The notes below the pieces were generated by a model. The model was not told the origin of the DNA and made no database searches. It saw nothing but the letters and a program-made list of their open reading frames with translations. Both the position numbers and the translations under genes were made by a program. Shown here one piece after another: positions 11,388 to 21,719 of a DNA stretch of 27,146 bases (its first letter is position 1; the number at the start of each line of letters is the position of its first letter). Source of the DNA: a virus; IMG/VR virus record IMGVR_UViG_3300034109_000388, positions 1-27,146 of that record. The stretch is one strand, 5' to 3'.

Positions 11388-12314
11388 TTAAGTCAACCCC
11401 TCAATTTCCATACGACACAAGGAGCGTGTCGGGTAAGCAATATCAATCGCAAAATCGCGATAAAACCCATAAACAATCAGCGGACTATAGTCCGTGCTGT
11501 CCGATCCAATGTACACACTAGGCACAGCGCGAACATCGGTTAAAAGTTTCTGCACATGCCGCAACTGGGTATTATCGAGGAGAAACGACGCCGACATGCG
11601 GCGGCTGAATGCGCGCTCGACGAACGTTGTTATGCCGGTGGCGGGGTCGGTCTGCTTTATAGAATAGTCAATGATCCCGATCGAGGCGCCTTGCTCGGTG
11701 CCATATGCGCCGAGCACATACTCGACCCCATACAAAAATTCCCCAACCCCCACGGCCCCCGAACTTGTAACAGTAACGGATATTTCTGCCGTCAGATACA
11801 GCGGCAGCCCCGTCACAATCAATTCTGTTAGCGGCTCGAACGGGGAGAAAAAATACTCATACCAATCGTCAATCCCCGCCGTGCTGCCCTCGAGCGAATA
11901 CGTTTGATCAAACAACGGAGGGCTCGCCCCCGCATCCGTCACAACCACTTGAACCTCGGTCCCGATAAGGCCTAACAGAGCGATCGAATCCACGAAATTC
12001 GGCGAGGGCGCAATCGTTATAGTAAGCGAATTGGTTGCGGAGGTTACTGTTGAGACCTGCCGATCGAACGCCGCGCATTTATTACACACCCCCAAATCGG
12101 TCCACTTCGTGGCGTCGGTCCCGGGGGTGTAGGTGTTAGTGTTGACGAGAGAAATCCAAATATGATAAACAGTATAAGCGCCATAACTTACCGGGTACAG
12201 CACCTTTGCGTCTTTAGAATACGACGAACCGCTAGTCCAAACCGGCGTGGGCTCGGGCGCATTATTAAACACAACCATCGACGGATCATATGGCGCGGGC
12301 TTTATCAGCTTCAT
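11388..12314 (-). CDS. Distal tail / baseplate structural protein, unclassified (308 aa)
   Basis: I do not recognise a named family. The sequence is beta-rich and Thr/Ser/Tyr-rich. Near the N-terminus is a carbohydrate-binding-like pattern ('VWTSGSSYSKDAKVLY' through 'TPGTDATKWTDLG', then 'CNKCAAFD'). The C-terminus has 'RRMSASFLLDNTQLRHVQKLL' and 'VYGFYRDFAIDIAYPTRSLC'. The start overlaps the tape-measure stop (ATGA, 12311-12314) and the stop is one base before the tail fibre start. As the only gene between tape measure and fibre it must supply, or help supply, the tail tip and fibre docking site. This role is from position, not from motif. Confidence 0.8.
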   Translation of the reverse strand: MKLIKPAPYDPSMVVFNNAPEPTPVWTSGSSYSKDAKVLYPVSYGAYTVYHIWISLVNTNTYTPGTDATKWTDLGVCNKCAAFDRQVSTVTSATNSLTITIAPSPNFVDSIALLGLIGTEVQVVVTDAGASPPLFDQTYSLEGSTAGIDDWYEYFFSPFEPLTELIVTGLPLYLTAEISVTVTSSGAVGVGEFLYGVEYVLGAYGTEQGASIGIIDYSIKQTDPATGITTFVERAFSRRMSASFLLDNTQLRHVQKLLTDVRAVPSVYIGSDSTDYSPLIVYGFYRDFAIDIAYPTRSLCRMEIEGLT

Positions 12315-15300
12315 ACAACCACCGTGTCGAGAGGTTGATCGGCGTCGGTCTTAACGGTTAGCCCGCGAACATCCCAGTTGTCTTGGAGGCGAGCCATCTT
12401 CGAGGTGCTAATCGCGGTGGATCGTGTCTCGGCTCGCATTAATGTTACCTCGTCGCGCAGCGAGCGAATCTCCGCCGCGACAACATTCTCCCCGCCCACA
12501 GCCGGGTTGTATTGCGCGGGGACAACTGCTTCGCCGCGATGGAGCATTGCGACCATGTCTTGCGGGACAAAGTTGGTTCCGGTCGCTAGAGTTGGCATCC
12601 CGCCGGTGCCCGGCGAGCGCCCCTCGCCCACAGCCACCGCTTCCGCCTCCGCGACAACTTGCGTGAGTTTGGACTTTGCGATGGCGTCGGAGAGCGCCGC
12701 GGCAAGATTGGAATCGAGGAGGGCGATGGCCTCGGATGGGGAGGCCTTTTGCGTGTAGTCGTAGGTGGCTGGGGCGGTAACGTCGCCGAACCGTTGTCCA
12801 TTCGAGAGGGTTCCGCCCGCGAAGGCGCCGCCCTTATTTTTTCCGCTCGATTCGAGCCCAGCGTAAAACTGGGTAACAGTGATCCCGGTCCCGGCGAGGG
12901 CGGAGTTGATCGAGGCGAGGGTGCCTGAGATGGCGGCTTTTACATCGTTGGAGGCGATTTCGCCGCCTGACGGACCGCCTACAAAGTTCACCGCGCCCGT
13001 CGATGGGTTTACATCGTAACGTCCGCCCGCTCTCGTTTCTCCGCCGTCGAGGGCTTTCGCGAGGAGATATGCCCCAGCTAAAACCGCAGCCACAGGAGCC
13101 GCCGCCGCTAAGGCCCCGGATACCCCGGACGCAGCCCCTCCGGCCGCTGCTGCCGCCGCGCCAGCGCCTTCCCCAAGAACCGCGAGCCCGCCCAACTCGG
13201 CCGCTCCGGCCGCCCCGGCTGCTGCCGCCGCACCAGCTGCCCCGGCTGCTGCTGCCGCTCCGCCTCCGGCCGCGACAATCGGGGCCGCAGCGGGAGCCGC
13301 GGAGCCGAGCCCGATCGAAGTCATTATTGAGCTCACGACGCTACGCACAGCGGTTGTGATCGGCGCGGTAAGGGCGGTGATCCCTTGCGAGATGCCGTCC
13401 ATGAAGGGTTTGATGATCGACTCAGCCACAAAAGCCTTGAACCGATTGCGTAACACATCGAGCAAATTATCAAAAAACCCTTTCCCTGATTCAAACCCGC
13501 GCATCAGCGCGTCGGTAAGGCCCTTGGATAATTCGTCAGTGGTTTTCTTCCATTCGGTCGCCGAATCCTTAGCGATTTGAACGTGGATGCCCTCTTGCTT
13601 AAGCGCCGCGAGATTGCGCAAACCGGCGGCTTGTTGTCGGTATTGCTCCGCAACCTCAGCGTCAAAATCCGCCTCGAGCGCCAACTGTGCCGCGCGATCC
13701 GCCGAGGCTGCGCGCTCCTCGAGTTTGGCGATTTCGAGCAACTGAATCTCGGTTTTGCTCGCACCATACATCACGTTGGCTTCGGCTTGTTTAATGATCT
13801 CGGCGTCGAGCGCGAGTGTGCCCTTGGTGAGCTCGGTGACCGAGGAGGATCGAGCTTTTGCGTAGGACAGCGTTGCGGCCTCCGAGGCCTTCATCGTGGC
13901 GCTTAGATCCTTTTCTGAGATCATCTGCTCAAGCATCGTGCCGATCTCCGCCCGCCGCTCCTCGGTCATTCCGCCGAGCGCCGCCGAGTATTGCTCGAGG
14001 ATTTTGAGTGCGGCTTTTTGCCCTTCGGTTAGCCCGGAGAGCGTGCCTGTCTCGGAGGATGTGGCAGCGATGTTTGCTTGGATTTCGGCGGTGAGCTTCT
14101 TGTATTGCTTTTCTTGTTCCTCGGCGGCTTTTTTCGCATCGTCGCGCTTCTTGGCTTCTTCCTCGAGCGCAATGTTGGCGCGGAGAATCTCGACAATCTC
14201 GAGCTTTCGCGCCTCGGTTAGCTTCAGCGAGCCGTTTTGAATCTGAATCATTACATCGAGCGCCGACCGTTGCGCCGCGGTTAGTTTGCCGTTGTTCGCC
14301 TCCTCGAGCAACATCTCGGCATTTTGTTCGCGGAGCTTCTCGATCAACTTCTTGTATGCTTCCTCTTGCTTTTTGATTTCCTCAATCTGCTCTTTTGTGA
14401 GCGCCACTGCGCGCTCTTGCGCCGGGGAGGCATTCGCCTCCATAAACGCGGCTCGCTGCACCTCGGTTTCGTAGACTGATTTGGTTGCGGCCTCGGCTCG
14501 CTTATTCTCAGCAACCATCGCCGAAATCGCATTCACCGCCGGGATCGCCGCCGCCGTGATACCCATAATGGCGAGCGCCACCGGGTTGGCTAAGAATGCC
14601 GCGGAGAGCGCCACAACGCCAGCCGTGAGCGCGGCCACTGCAGCCGTTATCGCCGGGAGCGCCGCGATTAGGGCGCCGCCGGTGAAGATCCCAGCCCAAA
14701 TCAGGAGTTGCGTGCGGTTGGCGTCAATCGCATTTCCGAGCGCCACCACCCCATTCCCCATCGACTCCACTGCGCTCGTCAACCCGCGCACCGATTCCAC
14801 GAGAGCGGCGCCGAATAGGCCTTGCGAGATTTTCAAAAAAGTCTGATCCCACGTATCCGCCAAATTACTAATCGCGCCATCCAGTGTCTTGGCTCGGGTT
14901 TCCATCGCCCCGGCAAAATCCACATCCCCAATCCGCCGCAAATACGCTTCGATCTCAGCGGCATTCTTGCCGATCGTTTCGCTGACGCCGCGGAATGTTA
15001 GTGTGACACGGTCGCCTTCGCTCGAGGCCTTGATGCCGAACTCTTTGAGCCGCTCGAATTCGCCGGTGGCGGCGTCGGCCACCGCCTCGATCATCTGGTT
15101 GAGGGATTTGCCCATTGCCGAGGCGGTGTTTCCGTAACTGCGGAGCGCCTCCTCGGATGGATCGAGCCCGAGCGCTTTGAGCTTGGTGAATGCGCCGGTG
15201 ACCTCGGCGAGCGAATAGGGGGTGTTGGCGGCGAAGGTTTTGATCCACGCGAAGTTGATCTCTGCGGCCCGGGCCGATCCGGTTACAGTGATCAGACTCG

Positions 15301-15523
15301 AATTCAACACATCGAACTCGCGCTGTACCTCGATCACCTTTCCAACAAACGACTGAACCGAGAACCCCGCCGCGAACGCCGTCAGCGCGGCCCCGGCCGT
15401 CTTGATGCTTTTCTCGACCGAGCCCATGGAATCCTCGACGGTCGATTGCACGCGCTTCATGTCCTGTTGTAACCGGACAATGTTCGCCGCCATCTCAATC
15501 GTCAATGTCCCAACGGTGTTCAT
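12311..15523 (-). CDS. Tail tape measure protein
   Basis: 1070 residues. The N-terminal tape-measure domain is recognisable: 'ANIVRLQQDMKRVQS', 'FDVLNSSLITVTGSA', 'FAANTPYSLAEVTGAF', 'LKALGLDPSEEALRSYGN', 'FERLKEFGIKAS'. A hydrophobic stretch (residues ~270-330) contains membrane-helix-like segments, as is usual. Residues ~370-560 are coiled coil with an internally repeated unit ('LTAAQRSAL', 'LTEARKLEI', 'LTEGQKAAL', 'MTEERRAEI'). Residues ~744-815 are an Ala/Gly tract. The protein sets tail length and is ejected ahead of DNA. At about 1.5 angstrom per residue a tail of roughly 160 nm is expected. Start and stop both overlap neighbours as ATGA. Confidence 0.96.
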   Translation of the reverse strand: MNTVGTLTIEMAANIVRLQQDMKRVQSTVEDSMGSVEKSIKTAGAALTAFAAGFSVQSFVGKVIEVQREFDVLNSSLITVTGSARAAEINFAWIKTFAANTPYSLAEVTGAFTKLKALGLDPSEEALRSYGNTASAMGKSLNQMIEAVADAATGEFERLKEFGIKASSEGDRVTLTFRGVSETIGKNAAEIEAYLRRIGDVDFAGAMETRAKTLDGAISNLADTWDQTFLKISQGLFGAALVESVRGLTSAVESMGNGVVALGNAIDANRTQLLIWAGIFTGGALIAALPAITAAVAALTAGVVALSAAFLANPVALAIMGITAAAIPAVNAISAMVAENKRAEAATKSVYETEVQRAAFMEANASPAQERAVALTKEQIEEIKKQEEAYKKLIEKLREQNAEMLLEEANNGKLTAAQRSALDVMIQIQNGSLKLTEARKLEIVEILRANIALEEEAKKRDDAKKAAEEQEKQYKKLTAEIQANIAATSSETGTLSGLTEGQKAALKILEQYSAALGGMTEERRAEIGTMLEQMISEKDLSATMKASEAATLSYAKARSSSVTELTKGTLALDAEIIKQAEANVMYGASKTEIQLLEIAKLEERAASADRAAQLALEADFDAEVAEQYRQQAAGLRNLAALKQEGIHVQIAKDSATEWKKTTDELSKGLTDALMRGFESGKGFFDNLLDVLRNRFKAFVAESIIKPFMDGISQGITALTAPITTAVRSVVSSIMTSIGLGSAAPAAAPIVAAGGGAAAAAGAAGAAAAAGAAGAAELGGLAVLGEGAGAAAAAAGGAASGVSGALAAAAPVAAVLAGAYLLAKALDGGETRAGGRYDVNPSTGAVNFVGGPSGGEIASNDVKAAISGTLASINSALAGTGITVTQFYAGLESSGKNKGGAFAGGTLSNGQRFGDVTAPATYDYTQKASPSEAIALLDSNLAAALSDAIAKSKLTQVVAEAEAVAVGEGRSPGTGGMPTLATGTNFVPQDMVAMLHRGEAVVPAQYNPAVGGENVVAAEIRSLRDEVTLMRAETRSTAISTSKMARLQDNWDVRGLTVKTDADQPLDTVVV

Positions 15524-18273: not shown

Positions 18274-18873
18274 CTACACGCCCATTTTGATTCGATAAGG
18301 CATCAATAAATACTCGGTCGCCATCGGTACTTCGGTCACGATATTAGCAACATTGATCGCTTCGCGGTTTTCATAAAGATGCCCGATCAACATTAACATT
18401 CCGCGCTGAATCGCCACCGGAACATTGTACATCGTCGGGCTTCCCGCATCCATCCCAGCCGACATCGTGATTGTGATCGCGTTCACGCGAGCCTTAGTTG
18501 CAGGCCACGGCTCGGTGGGTTGAAGCCGCGCGGGTCGATCATACGGATCAAGCAAGTATTTCGTAGACGAGAGGGTTTGTGTGGCGCCGTCCGGGTCGAT
18601 GTAGCTCACAGAGGTAATCGAGCGCACAGGCCATATCCCCAAATCGATCTCATCCTCCGGAAACTCGTCAAGCGTTAACAGATAAGTCTGCTCCACGAGC
18701 CCGAGGCCGGTGAAGGCCTCGGCGCTTTGTCGCGCGGCAGTGATCAGCGCCGTCACCAACGCATCATCAGGATGCGTCGGCGGCGATCCGCTCGTGTCCA
18801 ACCGGAGATGGAGCCGCGCTTGAGCCAGCGTGATCGGCTCGGCCGCGACATCGTTCAATGGAGTCAATTTCAT
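18274..18873 (-). CDS. Head-tail connector protein (HK97 gp6-like)
   Basis: A 199-residue protein with the gp6-type pattern: 'PITLAQARLHLRLDT', 'HPDDALVTALITAARQSAEAF', 'LVEQTYLLTLDEFPEDEIDL', 'WPVRSITSVSYIDPDG', 'AIQRGMLMLIGHLYENREA'. Alpha-helical N- and C-terminal parts flank a beta region. Such proteins form the 12- or 13-mer ring under the portal. It starts at an ATGA overlap with the glycosyltransferase gene (18870-18873), so it is co-translated with that gene. Confidence 0.92.
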   Translation of the reverse strand: MKLTPLNDVAAEPITLAQARLHLRLDTSGSPPTHPDDALVTALITAARQSAEAFTGLGLVEQTYLLTLDEFPEDEIDLGIWPVRSITSVSYIDPDGATQTLSSTKYLLDPYDRPARLQPTEPWPATKARVNAITITMSAGMDAGSPTMYNVPVAIQRGMLMLIGHLYENREAINVANIVTEVPMATEYLLMPYRIKMGV

Positions 18874-19580
18874 CTTTTATCCCTCAGCGCCGCGTATGCC
18901 TCCGCGGCTTTATCGCCAACCCACATCCGGAGTATTTCGCCCGAGGCATCCACATCGCCAACGAACCCACGATTATGCCCCGATCCGATCCCGGCTCGCC
19001 CTGGCAACCCTTTCATCCCAATAACCGATCGCCCATAGAATAGTCTGTGCGCGATGAATTTCTGATAAAGCAAAATGTCATAAAATGTTTCTTGCCTCGA
19101 GACAATCGCCCGGAACAACGCGAGCGCCGCCCCGCGCATCGCCGTCGAGCAAAGGCTAGCATGCTTTACATTGCCCATGTCGCGGTATCGCCTCGAGCCA
19201 ATGTGATAATAATGGGCGGAGATTTCACCTGCAAGCTCAAATAATCTCAGGTGCGCATCGACAATCTCAAGCCAACCCGGCGCATACCAATCATCATCCT
19301 CAATTATCACAACCCGCTCCGAGGCGTCGATTTGCTCGAGCGCGTGGCGAAGGTTTGCGCCTTGCGTATTTTCTCCCGGGCTCCAGTACGGACGGCGCCG
19401 ATGCACCTCGACAAACCACCCATCCCGACTCAACGAAACAACTTGTGGCTCAGCGCCATCGTCCACAATAACCCAACGCACAGGCCCGCGAAAGGTTTGC
19501 GCCGCCATCCACCTCTCGCATAATGCGAACGCCTCGGGCCTTGCGCCAGTTGTCGTCAGTAAGGTCACCCCCTCAGACAT
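18870..19580 (-). CDS. GT-A fold glycosyltransferase (family 2-like)
   Basis: A 236-residue protein. Residues 1-42 form the nucleotide-sugar-binding start of a GT-A fold ('VTLLTTTGARPEAFALCERW' then 'VRWVIVDDG', D40/D41). 'RVVIIEDDDWYAPGWLEI' carries the DxD-type metal/UDP site (D95-D97). Later are 'YHIGSRRYRDMGNVKHASLC' and 'IGMKGLPGRAGIGSGHN'. It has no membrane segments. The ATG at 19580 has an excellent GAGGAGG site 7 nt upstream; upstream in-frame starts were rejected. It sits inside the capsid/connector operon and overlaps the gene before it by 16 nt and the connector gene after it by 4 nt. Acceptor unknown; a virion protein is possible because the gene is late-expressed (inference). 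Confidence 0.88.
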   Translation of the reverse strand: MSEGVTLLTTTGARPEAFALCERWMAAQTFRGPVRWVIVDDGAEPQVVSLSRDGWFVEVHRRRPYWSPGENTQGANLRHALEQIDASERVVIIEDDDWYAPGWLEIVDAHLRLFELAGEISAHYYHIGSRRYRDMGNVKHASLCSTAMRGAALALFRAIVSRQETFYDILLYQKFIAHRLFYGRSVIGMKGLPGRAGIGSGHNRGFVGDVDASGEILRMWVGDKAAEAYAALRDKR

Positions 19581-20221
19581 TTGATCGCCTCCTCGAGCGA
19601 CATCCGCTCGAAACAATCCAATGCCGTTTCGCGGCTCGCATTAATTACCCGGACCCCCTCCCGCGTTAAATCCGCCGCGAGAGCAGGGAACTTTGCACGC
19701 CACATTTCGTAGGGCTGATGTTGGGTGAGGGTGGGAGGGTGCTGACCGAACCAATGCGCGTCGCCGCGCAACGACGGCCCACAATCAAACCCTAACAACA
19801 GGATTTGCGCCGCGCCCCATAAATAGGCGAGATTGATGGCTTGATAGCCGGAGTTGCCGCCTTGATGAATGACGTCGTGGAGCCCGAGCCCGGGCCGGTT
19901 TTCACTCCCGATCCGATTCAGGCCGAATCGCTTTGCTGCCCACTCGTCTTGGGTCCAGAGCTCACCTGCAAATCCGCTGAGACGGACCGTTTCGTAGTGG
20001 ACTTTCCACCACCCACCGTCGCACGCGTAGAGCGCGGCTGCGCTGGGGGCGAGCCGATAGGTGTCATTGATCGCGATTGTCGGTGAATCGGTTTGAGCGA
20101 TCCTTCGGCAATCTCCCTCGGTAAGACTGGGGCCGCTGGCGAGGATTGTGACAGTGCGCCCGCTCCAACGGCCAGCGGCGCGGTTTGCCTTGGGCTTATG
20201 ACGACTGTCGGCGAAGGGTTT
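19565..20221 (-). CDS. GPSL-motif protein (MptE/DUF115- or sialyltransferase-like fold), lacking a normal start codon
   Basis: The frame opens after TGA at 20257-20255. It encodes 'GRWSGRTVTILASGPSLTEG', 'TIAINDTYRLAPSAAALYAC', 'GGWWKVHYETVRLSG', 'GGNSGYQAINLAYLWGA', 'ILLLGFDCGP', 'GDAHWFGQHPP', 'YEMWRAKFPALAADLTREGV', 'INASRETALDCF'. The N-terminal GPSL and later 'SGYQAINLA...LGFD' resemble the DUF115/MptE and Campylobacter-type sialyltransferase fold. No ATG, GTG, TTG, CTG, ATT or ATA occurs between the frame opening and the GPSL motif. The frame is -1 to the gene starting at 20355 and meets it at A AAC CCT (20215-20221). A slip there would give a protein of about 263 residues. Alternatives are a frameshift mutation, a sequencing indel, or a rare start. 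The coding sequence looks real; its initiation is unresolved. Confidence 0.8.
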   Translation of the reverse strand, partial: KPFADSRHKPKANRAAGRWSGRTVTILASGPSLTEGDCRRIAQTDSPTIAINDTYRLAPSAAALYACDGGWWKVHYETVRLSGFAGELWTQDEWAAKRFGLNRIGSENRPGLGLHDVIHQGGNSGYQAINLAYLWGAAQILLLGFDCGPSLRGDAHWFGQHPPTLTQHQPYEMWRAKFPALAADLTREGVRVINASRETALDCFERMSLEEAIKCLRG

Positions 20222-20355
20222 ACAATTTCGATCAACCCCACAGATTCCAACTGATCAGCGAGCAACGCCGGTAGCCGCAAGCGTTGTTTCCTCGATACAC
20301 CGCCGATCCGCGTGTCACTAAAATGACACAGCGCAATCGCTTCAACAACTTCCAT
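19918..20355 (-). CDS. Small capsid-region protein with N-terminal conserved domain; tail overlaps the GPSL frame
   Basis: The ATG at 20355 has AAAGGA 8 nt upstream and overlaps the preceding small gene by 14 nt. The first 47 residues ('MEVVEAIALCHFSDTRIGG...LPALLADQLESVGLIEIVNP') form a small domain of the kind seen after phage major capsid genes. Beyond this the same frame runs another ~98 residues of Pro/Ser/Ala/Arg-rich sequence ('PLAVGAGALSQSSPAAPVLP') that overlaps the GPSL coding frame completely. Related phage proteins often do end in such a Ser/Pro-rich tail, so a product of up to 145 residues is possible. Alternatively the N-terminal part feeds the GPSL frame through a -1 frameshift at 20215-20221. 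No function known. Confidence 0.6.
   Translation of the reverse strand: MEVVEAIALCHFSDTRIGGVSRKQRLRLPALLADQLESVGLIEIVNPSPTVVISPRQTAPLAVGAGALSQSSPAAPVLPREIAEGSLKPIHRQSRSMTPIGSPPAQPRSTRATVGGGKSTTKRSVSADLQVSSGPKTSGQQSDSA
20215..20221 (-). other. Candidate -1 frameshift heptamer A AAC CCT
   Basis: In the frame of the gene starting at 20355 the codons read GTA AAC CCT TCG, giving X XXY YYZ = A AAC CCT. After a -1 slip the reading is AAA CCC TTC, which enters the GPSL frame. C-type slippery sites are usually weaker than A- or T-type ones in bacteria, so this is suggestive only. It is the point where the two frames can be joined without meeting a stop. Confidence 0.45.
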
Positions 20356-20530
20356 GATCTTTGTCCTTTCGCGGGGGCGCCGACTCGCCTTTGTAGGGCG
20401 AGGTGCGCCATTGAGCGTAGCAAAATGCCGCGCGTTGCGCCTCGTCCGGGAAATCTCGCCGAGCCTCTGCATCCGACATACATCGGCTCATGAACTCGGG
20501 TTGGCTTTCGGATGGACGGGGCGCTGGCAT
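20342..20530 (-). CDS. Small conserved phage protein, head region (62 aa)
   Basis: A 62-residue protein: 'MPAPRPSESQPEFMSRCMSD', 'EARRDFPDEAQRAAFCYAQW', then a basic Lys/Arg-rich tail. The 'SRCMxDxxxxxxFPDxxQRxAxCYxQW' pattern with two Cys is a recurrent motif of small phage proteins near HK97-type head genes; function unknown. The start at 20530 lies 4 nt after the capsid gene stop and has no strong ribosome-binding site, so reinitiation after capsid translation is likely. The end overlaps the next gene by 14 nt. Confidence 0.75.
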   Translation of the reverse strand: MPAPRPSESQPEFMSRCMSDAEARRDFPDEAQRAAFCYAQWRTSPYKGESAPPRKDKDHGSC

Positions 20531-20534
20531 GGCT

Positions 20535-21719
20535 TTAGAACGTGCCCTTGATAAATGCGGCTGGGCGGTACACGGTCAGTGCAAGCCGCTCCTCGGCGAG
20601 CAACGTGGCCATGTTTTTCTTGAAGTTGTCGCCATCCTCATACGAGATTTGAACGGCGGCATCCATCCGATCCCACACCTGAGCGCCCATCGAGAATGCA
20701 CCCACTAGGAATGTCCCGGAGGCAATCGAGTTTGTTGCAACAATGCGCTTGCCCCACAGCTGAGGTCCGGCCATCACCATGGGGTTAGCCATGATGTACG
20801 TGCCATCGGTCGCTTTCGTGAGCTCGATCGCTTCCCAATCAGCCGGGTTAATCACGATGGCATCCACCGGATACTCGCTCAGGGCGGCTTGCGTGATCGC
20901 CTTGCGCAGGGTGTCGATGTCGGTGTCGCCAGTGGCGCCGCGGTTATAGGCGGTGAAGTTGCCCGAGGTGAGCAAGCCGCTGATATTCCCCGAGGCCCCG
21001 GAGCCGTTGAGGAGTTGATCCTCCTCCTCGAGCTTCAGACCGTAGGTGAGGCGCCCGTTCACATAACTTTGCAGCTGAGGGGCATCGTCCAGGATCTGAC
21101 GGGAGACAGGGATAAAGTGAGCCAGCGTGACAACCGGAGCATTCGCCAACGTGAAAGTGATGCCGGACTCGGGCTTGGTCACATTCTCGCGGTTGGGCGA
21201 GGAGTACTGAGGACCGGCGTTGTTGGTGAATACATTCTCGCGCGTAAACTGCACGAGATTCGACGCCGTTTGCCCGGTTGGCATAAGGTCGCGGATGGTT
21301 AGAACGCGATTTGGGTTGGCGATAATGCCTGGAACGCGCATATCGGCCACGAGCGGCTGATTTTGCCCGGTGGCGTTAACGATAGCGGTCTTGACCTCGA
21401 TGCGAGCGAACTTGCTGCGGCCCTCGGCCATGTTTTTGAAGGACTCGGATTTGACGAACTGCTCGCCGACCGACTCTTGAGCGCGGGAGGAGGACTCGTG
21501 ACCTGCGGAAACTTTACGCTCCAGCTCGAGACACTTGTCGGTCAGCTCGGCCGCTTTGGTGCTGAGCTTTTCGATGGCGGATTTGGTTTCGCCTTCGATG
21601 CGCTTGGTGGATTCGATTTCGCCGTTGGCTTTCTCCATCCAAGTTTTTAATTCACGCGAGGATTCGAGGAGCCGCGATTGGGTGTCGGCGAGAGCTTTGA
21701 TTTCAGATAAGTCAGCCAT
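20535..21719 (-). CDS. Major capsid protein, HK97 gp5-like with N-terminal scaffolding (delta) domain
   Basis: 394 residues, close to HK97 gp5 (385). Residues 1-~110 are a charged coiled-coil delta domain serving as scaffold. The mature fold runs from ~111: 'PGIIANPNRVLTIRDLMPTG', 'FTRENVFTNNAG', 'TKPESGITFT', 'HFIPVSRQILDDAPQLQSYV', 'GLKLEEEDQLLNGSG', 'MGAQVWDRMDAAVQIS', 'DNFKKNMATLLAEERLAL', 'YRPAAFIKGTF'. Aligned by eye with HK97, K182, N369 and E376 match K169, N356 and E363, the isopeptide crosslinking residues. Cleavage probably falls near K110/T111. AGGA lies 8 nt upstream of the ATG, which is 10 nt after the protease stop. Confidence 0.97.
   Translation of the reverse strand: MADLSEIKALADTQSRLLESSRELKTWMEKANGEIESTKRIEGETKSAIEKLSTKAAELTDKCLELERKVSAGHESSSRAQESVGEQFVKSESFKNMAEGRSKFARIEVKTAIVNATGQNQPLVADMRVPGIIANPNRVLTIRDLMPTGQTASNLVQFTRENVFTNNAGPQYSSPNRENVTKPESGITFTLANAPVVTLAHFIPVSRQILDDAPQLQSYVNGRLTYGLKLEEEDQLLNGSGASGNISGLLTSGNFTAYNRGATGDTDIDTLRKAITQAALSEYPVDAIVINPADWEAIELTKATDGTYIMANPMVMAGPQLWGKRIVATNSIASGTFLVGAFSMGAQVWDRMDAAVQISYEDGDNFKKNMATLLAEERLALTVYRPAAFIKGTF

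Follow-up and report, generated by a model that had tools for sequence, protein, structure and literature searches.

Immediately behind the major capsid gene of a metagenomic virus, a small open reading frame (ORF-A) and a sialyltransferase-like ORF carrying a GPSL motif overlap in such a way that a conserved programmed -1 ribosomal frameshift is the best explanation, and we consider it very probable. The window analysed is a 27,146-nt stretch, a single IMG/VR virus record (IMGVR_UViG_3300034109_000388). Under the proposed mechanism ribosomes would start at the ATG of ORF-A and make a domain resembling lambda gpFI. A stem 5 nt downstream would then hold them at the heptamer A AAC CCT, where a fraction would slip back one base and go on to produce a fusion with the sialyltransferase-like GPSL domain. 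Most ribosomes would continue unshifted and yield the frame-0 product with its tail. For the frameshift itself our confidence, drawn from comparison of many loci, is a shade higher still, whereas we give about an even chance to the tethering of the enzyme to the head through the gpFI-like domain, which is argued by analogy.

Frame arrangement in the window and its relatives

ORF-A begins at ATG 20355 and is open in frame 0 to 19918 on the minus strand. The GPSL ORF lies in its -1 frame, which opens after a TGA at 20257-20255 and ends with a stop at 19567-19565 (minus strand). The sequence-only reading had stated that this frame opens without a usual start, and the window sequence confirms it: no ATG, GTG, TTG, CTG, ATT or ATA precedes the motif in the window, and the sole start-like codons found there are two ATC. 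As no start codon is available for GPSL, every enzyme molecule would carry the head domain. Translation through A AAC CCT gives a fusion of 263 aa (Table 1).

Table 1. Coordinates of the features discussed, numbered from the first letter of the window
Feature	Position	Strand	Remarks
Major capsid protein gene	20535..21719	-	PF05065, E 5.7e-52
Small ORF between capsid gene and ORF-A	20342..20530	-	Overlaps ORF-A start; in 17 relatives
ORF-A, unshifted, 145 aa, frame-0 tail overlapping the enzyme frame	19918..20355	-	
ORF-A N-terminal domain, frame 0, 47 aa up to the slip, then S	20212..20355	-	ATG 20355
Slip heptamer A AAC CCT, with the C_CCU tetramer in the A site	20215..20221	-	
Spacer TCGCC, 5 nt, heptamer to stem	20210..20214	-	
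Stimulatory stem, 5' arm (GACAGT + GT)	20201..20209	-	RNAalifold, covariation
Stimulatory stem, 3' arm (GC + ACTGTC)	20150..20159	-	RNAalifold, covariation
Second possible stem, 5' arm GCCGCTGGC	20171..20179	-	Pairs with 20132-20140
Second possible stem, 3' arm GCCAGCGGC	20132..20140	-	Codons of the ASG motif
Frame -1 part of the fusion, linker and GPSL domain, 216 aa + stop	19565..20215	-	phrog_4603
GT2-like gene 3' of GPSL, sugar-related cassette	18870..19616	-	PF00535, E 0.0077, below cut-off
Tape-measure gene	12311-15523		

A scan of genome contigs with the window's protein as query returned no relatives; these were gathered from viral contigs and genomes by profile scans. The overlap of frame 0 with frame -1 is present in 107 of 127 parsed loci (raw counts, which include related sequences), 95 of the 107 having no ATG, GTG or TTG in the -1 frame before the motif. 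The other 20 loci encode the enzyme as a separate gene, mostly from an ATG 24-45 nt before the motif. Nearly all loci of the window's group in which a start could be placed have a distance of 212 or 215 nt from the ORF-A start to the motif, and L003, which is 77% identical, shows both frames and heptamer as in the window. We put the spread of the overlap at no fewer than 105 related loci, in contigs and in prophages of many genera. Among them are prophages of Lysobacter, Achromobacter, Bordetella, Halomonas and Pseudomonas isolates, together with Pseudomonas phage Psp6, Tetraselmis viridis virus S20 and phage D3.

The sequence-only reading had named a mutation or one-base sequencing error as its main alternative, with GPSL being in reality a normal or a broken gene. 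The window is indeed one metagenomic virus record. However, it shows no indel signature, and the start-less frame relation is also found in L003 and at over 40 loci within the group, as well as in prophages of cultured isolates and in D3 and its relatives. Moreover, it is the enzyme frame that constraint follows. More than 100 independent contigs share the arrangement and refute this explanation, and we attach a negligible probability to it. The close homologues lack an ATG and keep the heptamer. Homologues with a normal ATG, which had been held to count against a frameshift, do exist (PAJU2, P1 and others), but theirs is a separate, unfused architecture, and so they do not refute it.

Codon-position diversity in the window's group is 0.36/0.18/0.56 before the slip, following frame 0, and 0.37/0.36/0.54 past the slip, following frame -1. 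As judged from these sequences, protein constraint changes frame at the heptamer and both overlapping frames are constrained. The frame-0 tail stays open longer across relatives than protein-preserving resampling predicts. The idea that this tail is selected to be basic was dropped, given that its observed net charge equals that of resampled sequences.

The junction also occurs in cultured phages, namely D3 (L021) and its relatives PMG1 (L155) and U7 (L156), all three of which have C CCA AAG where orf6.5 and orf7 of D3 meet. No joined CDS is annotated in D3 and its relatives, orf6.5 and orf7 of D3 being given as two genes. The annotated orf7 of D3 and of several relatives begins at an internal start that lies beyond the GPSL motif, and therefore the deposited protein lacks the motif; PMG1 is annotated with an upstream start. 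A search of an incomplete open literature library found no earlier description of the fusion, which seems to have been missed in genome annotations.

The upstream start of PMG1, a GTG 60 nt upstream of the motif in D3 and the ATC codons of the window, the only start-like codon there, would all fit a GPSL protein translated separately from a non-standard start, coupled to ORF-A and with no frameshift. However, no start codon is positionally conserved, and in several loci the -1 frame opens very near the slip (in L112, 12 codons before the motif). Nor does the ORF-A stop lie near such a start; it is found 58-265 nt past the motif in the loci compared. What is conserved is the slip element, the 5-nt spacer and the covarying stem, and we judge separate translation to be very unlikely.

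The slip element and its downstream stem

The -1 step had been placed at a heptamer of the X XXY YYZ form, and A AAC CCT does occupy the register required for a -1 slip. Across the window's group a heptamer in slip register recurs at equal distance from the motif, the sequence at this fixed place being AAACCCT or AAACCCC, CCCAAAC or CCCAAAG, or TTTCCCT (L090); in L044 just C CCC is kept. In the CCCAAAC subgroup three bases have been lost between the conserved AAAC and the stem, with the heptamer three bases further upstream, and despite this loss the gap between heptamer and stem is still 5 nt. An XXXYYYZ heptamer is found in 26 of 50 non-redundant loci (the set left after 80% identity reduction, phylogeny not modelled), compared with 3.0 expected from same-length windows of long ORFs and 8.9 expected from synonymous resampling with the protein kept. 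This enrichment and the recurrence across the window's group argue that the heptamer is more than a chance occurrence.

Outside the window's group the loci have in common a C followed by a proline codon, CCC, CCT or CCA, an element that can be summarised as NNC CCY about 5 nt before the stem. It is present in 42 of the 50 loci, against 6.7 expected from equally long windows within long ORFs and 21.9 after protein-preserving codon resampling (z 6.3); CCG preceded by C has no clear enrichment in these 50 loci. An out-of-sample set comprised 27 new loci that share less than 80% identity with one another and with the overlap set analysed before. One of the 27 is a separate gene and all 26 others have the slip element. 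By a stricter rule L009, L073, L078, L083, L093 and L095 have no clear slip element, and the assignment of the slip at single loci outside the window's group is best regarded as putative.

In E. coli, slippery tetramers have been ranked A_AAG >> U_UUC > U_UUU > C_CCU = C_CCC > A_AAA, with C_CCA and C_CCG weak and C_CCA_AAG the most efficient heptamer measured (PMC4066793). The slip-codon preference across our loci matches this tetramer ranking, and the top heptamer is the one that D3, PMG1 and U7 carry. A_AAC_CCA was below threshold in the E. coli measurements, so the slippage that we infer for the window may be of low frequency.

Downstream of the slip, RNAalifold on 31 non-redundant members of the group predicts a stem beginning 5 nt 3' of the heptamer, with an energy of -4.37 versus -0.20 (sd 0.46; z -9.0) for column shuffles within codon phase, and no stem in the stretch upstream of the slip. 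Covariation within this stem was assessed on 34 aligned sequences. Here 93.2% of stem cells are paired, 52 cells have changed on both sides, 7 of 8 stem pairs show compensatory change and none of 500 shuffles reaches the covariation score. Sliding the stem partner cuts pairing to 31-53%, and RNAalifold applied to the 34-sequence alignment yields the identical stem unprompted. A single-sequence fold of the first 60 nt after the window's slip is uninformative (z 0.73). The two heptamer subtypes have the 5-nt spacing in common. Moreover, given the slip codon, the best downstream stem score peaks at a spacer of 5 nt, and in the out-of-sample loci the peak is again at 5-6 (19 versus a background of 8-11). 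The stem argument rests on the group covariation test together with this spacer test.

In prophage-type loci the stem located in this way is GGCCGCTGGC/GCCAGCGGCC, with variants that include GACCGTTGGCG/CGCCAGCGGTC and GGCCACTGG/CCAGTGGCC; its covariation is modest (7 cells) but above all shuffles. A protein-preserving test for stems between the GRW and ASGP codons is only weakly positive (p < 0.05 in 8 of 50 fused loci and 0 of 20 unfused), which we attribute to the position of both arms in conserved codons. The second possible stem of the window (9 bp, synonymous-resampling p = 0.03) corresponds to the prophage-type main stem, and its role in the window is uncertain. A second slip candidate, C CCA at 20194-20191, lies nearer to it. 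Slippage in the window could therefore be imagined at C CCA AGG (20194-20188) instead of A AAC CCT, with the stem 20179-20171/20140-20132 as its stimulator, since C CCA lies about 9 nt upstream of 9 bp that match the prophage-type main stem. However, in E. coli C CCA by itself hardly provokes slippage. The downstream site recurs in L003 but not across the group, unlike the upstream heptamer, spacer and covarying stem, and we think it improbable as the site of slippage.

Slippage of RNA polymerase, giving a mixed mRNA population and no ribosomal frameshifting, might be suspected from A or T runs near the junction in L051, L058 and L074. There is, however, no homopolymer of more than 3 bases at the site of the window (AAACCCT) or of D3 (CCCAAAG), and a covarying stem at fixed spacing to the slip codon is a signature of the ribosome, which leaves hardly any probability for this origin. 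The spacer-and-stem stimulator of ribosomal frameshifting, like the gpFI likeness of the small domain and the wide spread of the arrangement as far as phage D3, goes beyond what had been read from the window.

The predicted domains and the head operon

The sequence-only reading had proposed that a small head-region domain is fused to a protein resembling glycosyltransferases, and comparison of homologues upholds this. Homologues of ORF-A form one small domain family across loci, and the N-terminal domain in the window shares 85% identity with that of L003 over its whole length. Its AlphaFold model (pLDDT 92) matched the C-terminal domain of lambda gpFI (2LSM) in Foldseek with a probability of 1.00 (TMq 0.77, TMt 0.62, 24% identity, rmsd 4.2), no PDB match of the domain being significant by E-value (2LSM, E 0.088). 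2LSM was also a weak profile match to the ORF-A family (E 0.27), and hhalign of the family against gpFI 104-130 gave E 5.7e-4 in a single comparison (prob 29.5). On the predicted model the small domain folds like the C-terminal domain of gpFI, a fold that is widespread among many unrelated small phage proteins. The likeness extends to gene position between capsid and head-closure genes, lambda FI, between E and FII, occupying the place of ORF-A. The two differ in that gpFI has this fold at its C-terminus and involves no frameshift, whereas in the fusion it precedes an enzyme domain.

The GPSL domain matches phrog_4603, 'alpha-2,3-sialyltransferase', with E 2.5e-44 over positions 1-175 of the 178 in the profile. 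GT29 structures match the fold of its AlphaFold model (pLDDT 96.6) with a probability of 0.98 and a TM of about 0.45. Sequence similarity to characterised sialyltransferases is marginal, as for CstII (E 0.22), and PF01973 (MptE-like, formerly DUF115) scores 22.6 bits on GPSL, below its cut-off of 34.6. By its model the domain is sialyltransferase-like in fold, and this fold and the sugar-related neighbours suggest that it may transfer a sugar. Its closest known counterparts are the phrog_4603 members P1 PmgO, D3 Orf7 and PAJU2 ORF010, with which it has the enzyme domain and the GPSL motif in common, and the CstII (GT42) and GT29 folds, which its predicted sialyltransferase-like fold resembles; P1 and PAJU2 make the enzyme from its own ATG, unlike the fused form of the window.

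Longer and duplicated forms of the domain were also observed. In L081 (2483-3997) the GPSL domain continues in frame into a glycosyltransferase-family-9-like (GT9-like) domain, and similar long ORFs with a second large domain are present in L053, L072, L082, L112, L113, L117 and L131; going by their sequences, some of these would be three-domain frameshift products. P1 (L020) has pmgO and pmgP, and phiNP (L022) two ORFs, that encode GPS-motif proteins side by side, which suggests duplication of the enzyme domain.

The pair is part of an HK97-type head and tail operon on the minus strand of the window, in the order terminase, portal, protease, major capsid, small ORF, ORF-A/GPSL pair, GT2-like gene, head-tail connector, closure and tail genes. 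The small ORF before ORF-A has the motif F..RCM.D....FP..QR.AFCY..W, which is kept in 17 contigs. The gene after GPSL appears exchangeable: the GT2-like gene of the window has similar counterparts in L003 and L006, and in L004 and L013 its place is taken by a protein that looks, by eye only, like a methyltransferase. We read the slot as a sugar or modification cassette inserted within the head operon.

That the site lies outside the tail chaperone is borne out by its location behind the capsid gene. A first frameshift had been assumed at the tail chaperone itself, and this is plausible. A G/GT-like pair sits just before the tape-measure gene, consisting of an ORF at 16487-15972 and, in the -1 frame, a second ORF that is open over 16020-15520 (minus strand), with A AAT TTT in register at about 16002. 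The ORF-A/GPSL site resembles lambda G/GT and its relatives in its proposed -1 heptamer slip within a structural operon, which would give a short major and a long minor product. It differs in lying behind the capsid gene and not before the tape-measure gene, in the proteins concerned and in having an enzyme-like extension.

A putative enzyme on the phage head

Lambda gpFI binds the prohead lattice and helps terminase to dock (PMC4856287). If ORF-A acts likewise, a limited number of enzymes could be placed on the prohead or virion. The fold, the weak profile matches, the shared synteny with gpFI and the prohead binding of gpFI are what suggest the gpFI-like domain as a tether that would dock on the head or prohead. 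The fusion could also be real and serve another role, the small domain stabilising or dosing an enzyme that modifies the host envelope, for instance in superinfection exclusion. Unfused homologues (PAJU2 ORF010 and P1 pmgO) and the sugar-related neighbour genes speak for such a role. Its gpFI-like fold and its conserved place directly after the capsid gene speak against it, as may the label 'structural protein' that the depositors of PAJU2 ORF010 gave to this protein. We regard this role as quite conceivable, if somewhat short of an even chance, and the target of sugar transfer may accordingly be on the virion or on the envelope.

Frameshift-extended head proteins are also known from the capsid genes of Lactobacillus phage A2, T3/T7 gene 10 and Listeria phages (reviewed in PMC5009743). 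In those cases it is the capsid protein that acquires the extension, in many instances Ig-like domains, whereas here a gpFI-like accessory protein would gain a glycosyltransferase-like domain. We tentatively hypothesise, with rather more doubt than belief, that a widespread class of Proteobacteria phages uses a programmed -1 frameshift, typically at C_CCY before a fixed stem, to put a small set number of glycosyltransferases on the head via a gpFI-like capsid-binding domain, the unshifted product serving as a packaging chaperone.

The frameshift would be a new conserved recoding site in the phage head operon, outside the tail chaperone, with the arrangement present in more than 100 contigs including that of the cultured phage D3. 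Since most of the slip elements are weak proline tetramers followed at constant distance by a stem, they offer a test of the rules of bacterial -1 frameshifting beyond E. coli insertion sequences. Moreover, the fusion gives a testable idea for the puzzling 'sialyltransferase' genes of phage head operons, namely that they are attached to a lambda-FI-like domain. If this is true, phage heads would either bear an enzyme or undergo modification by it, and the rate of slippage would fix its copy number.
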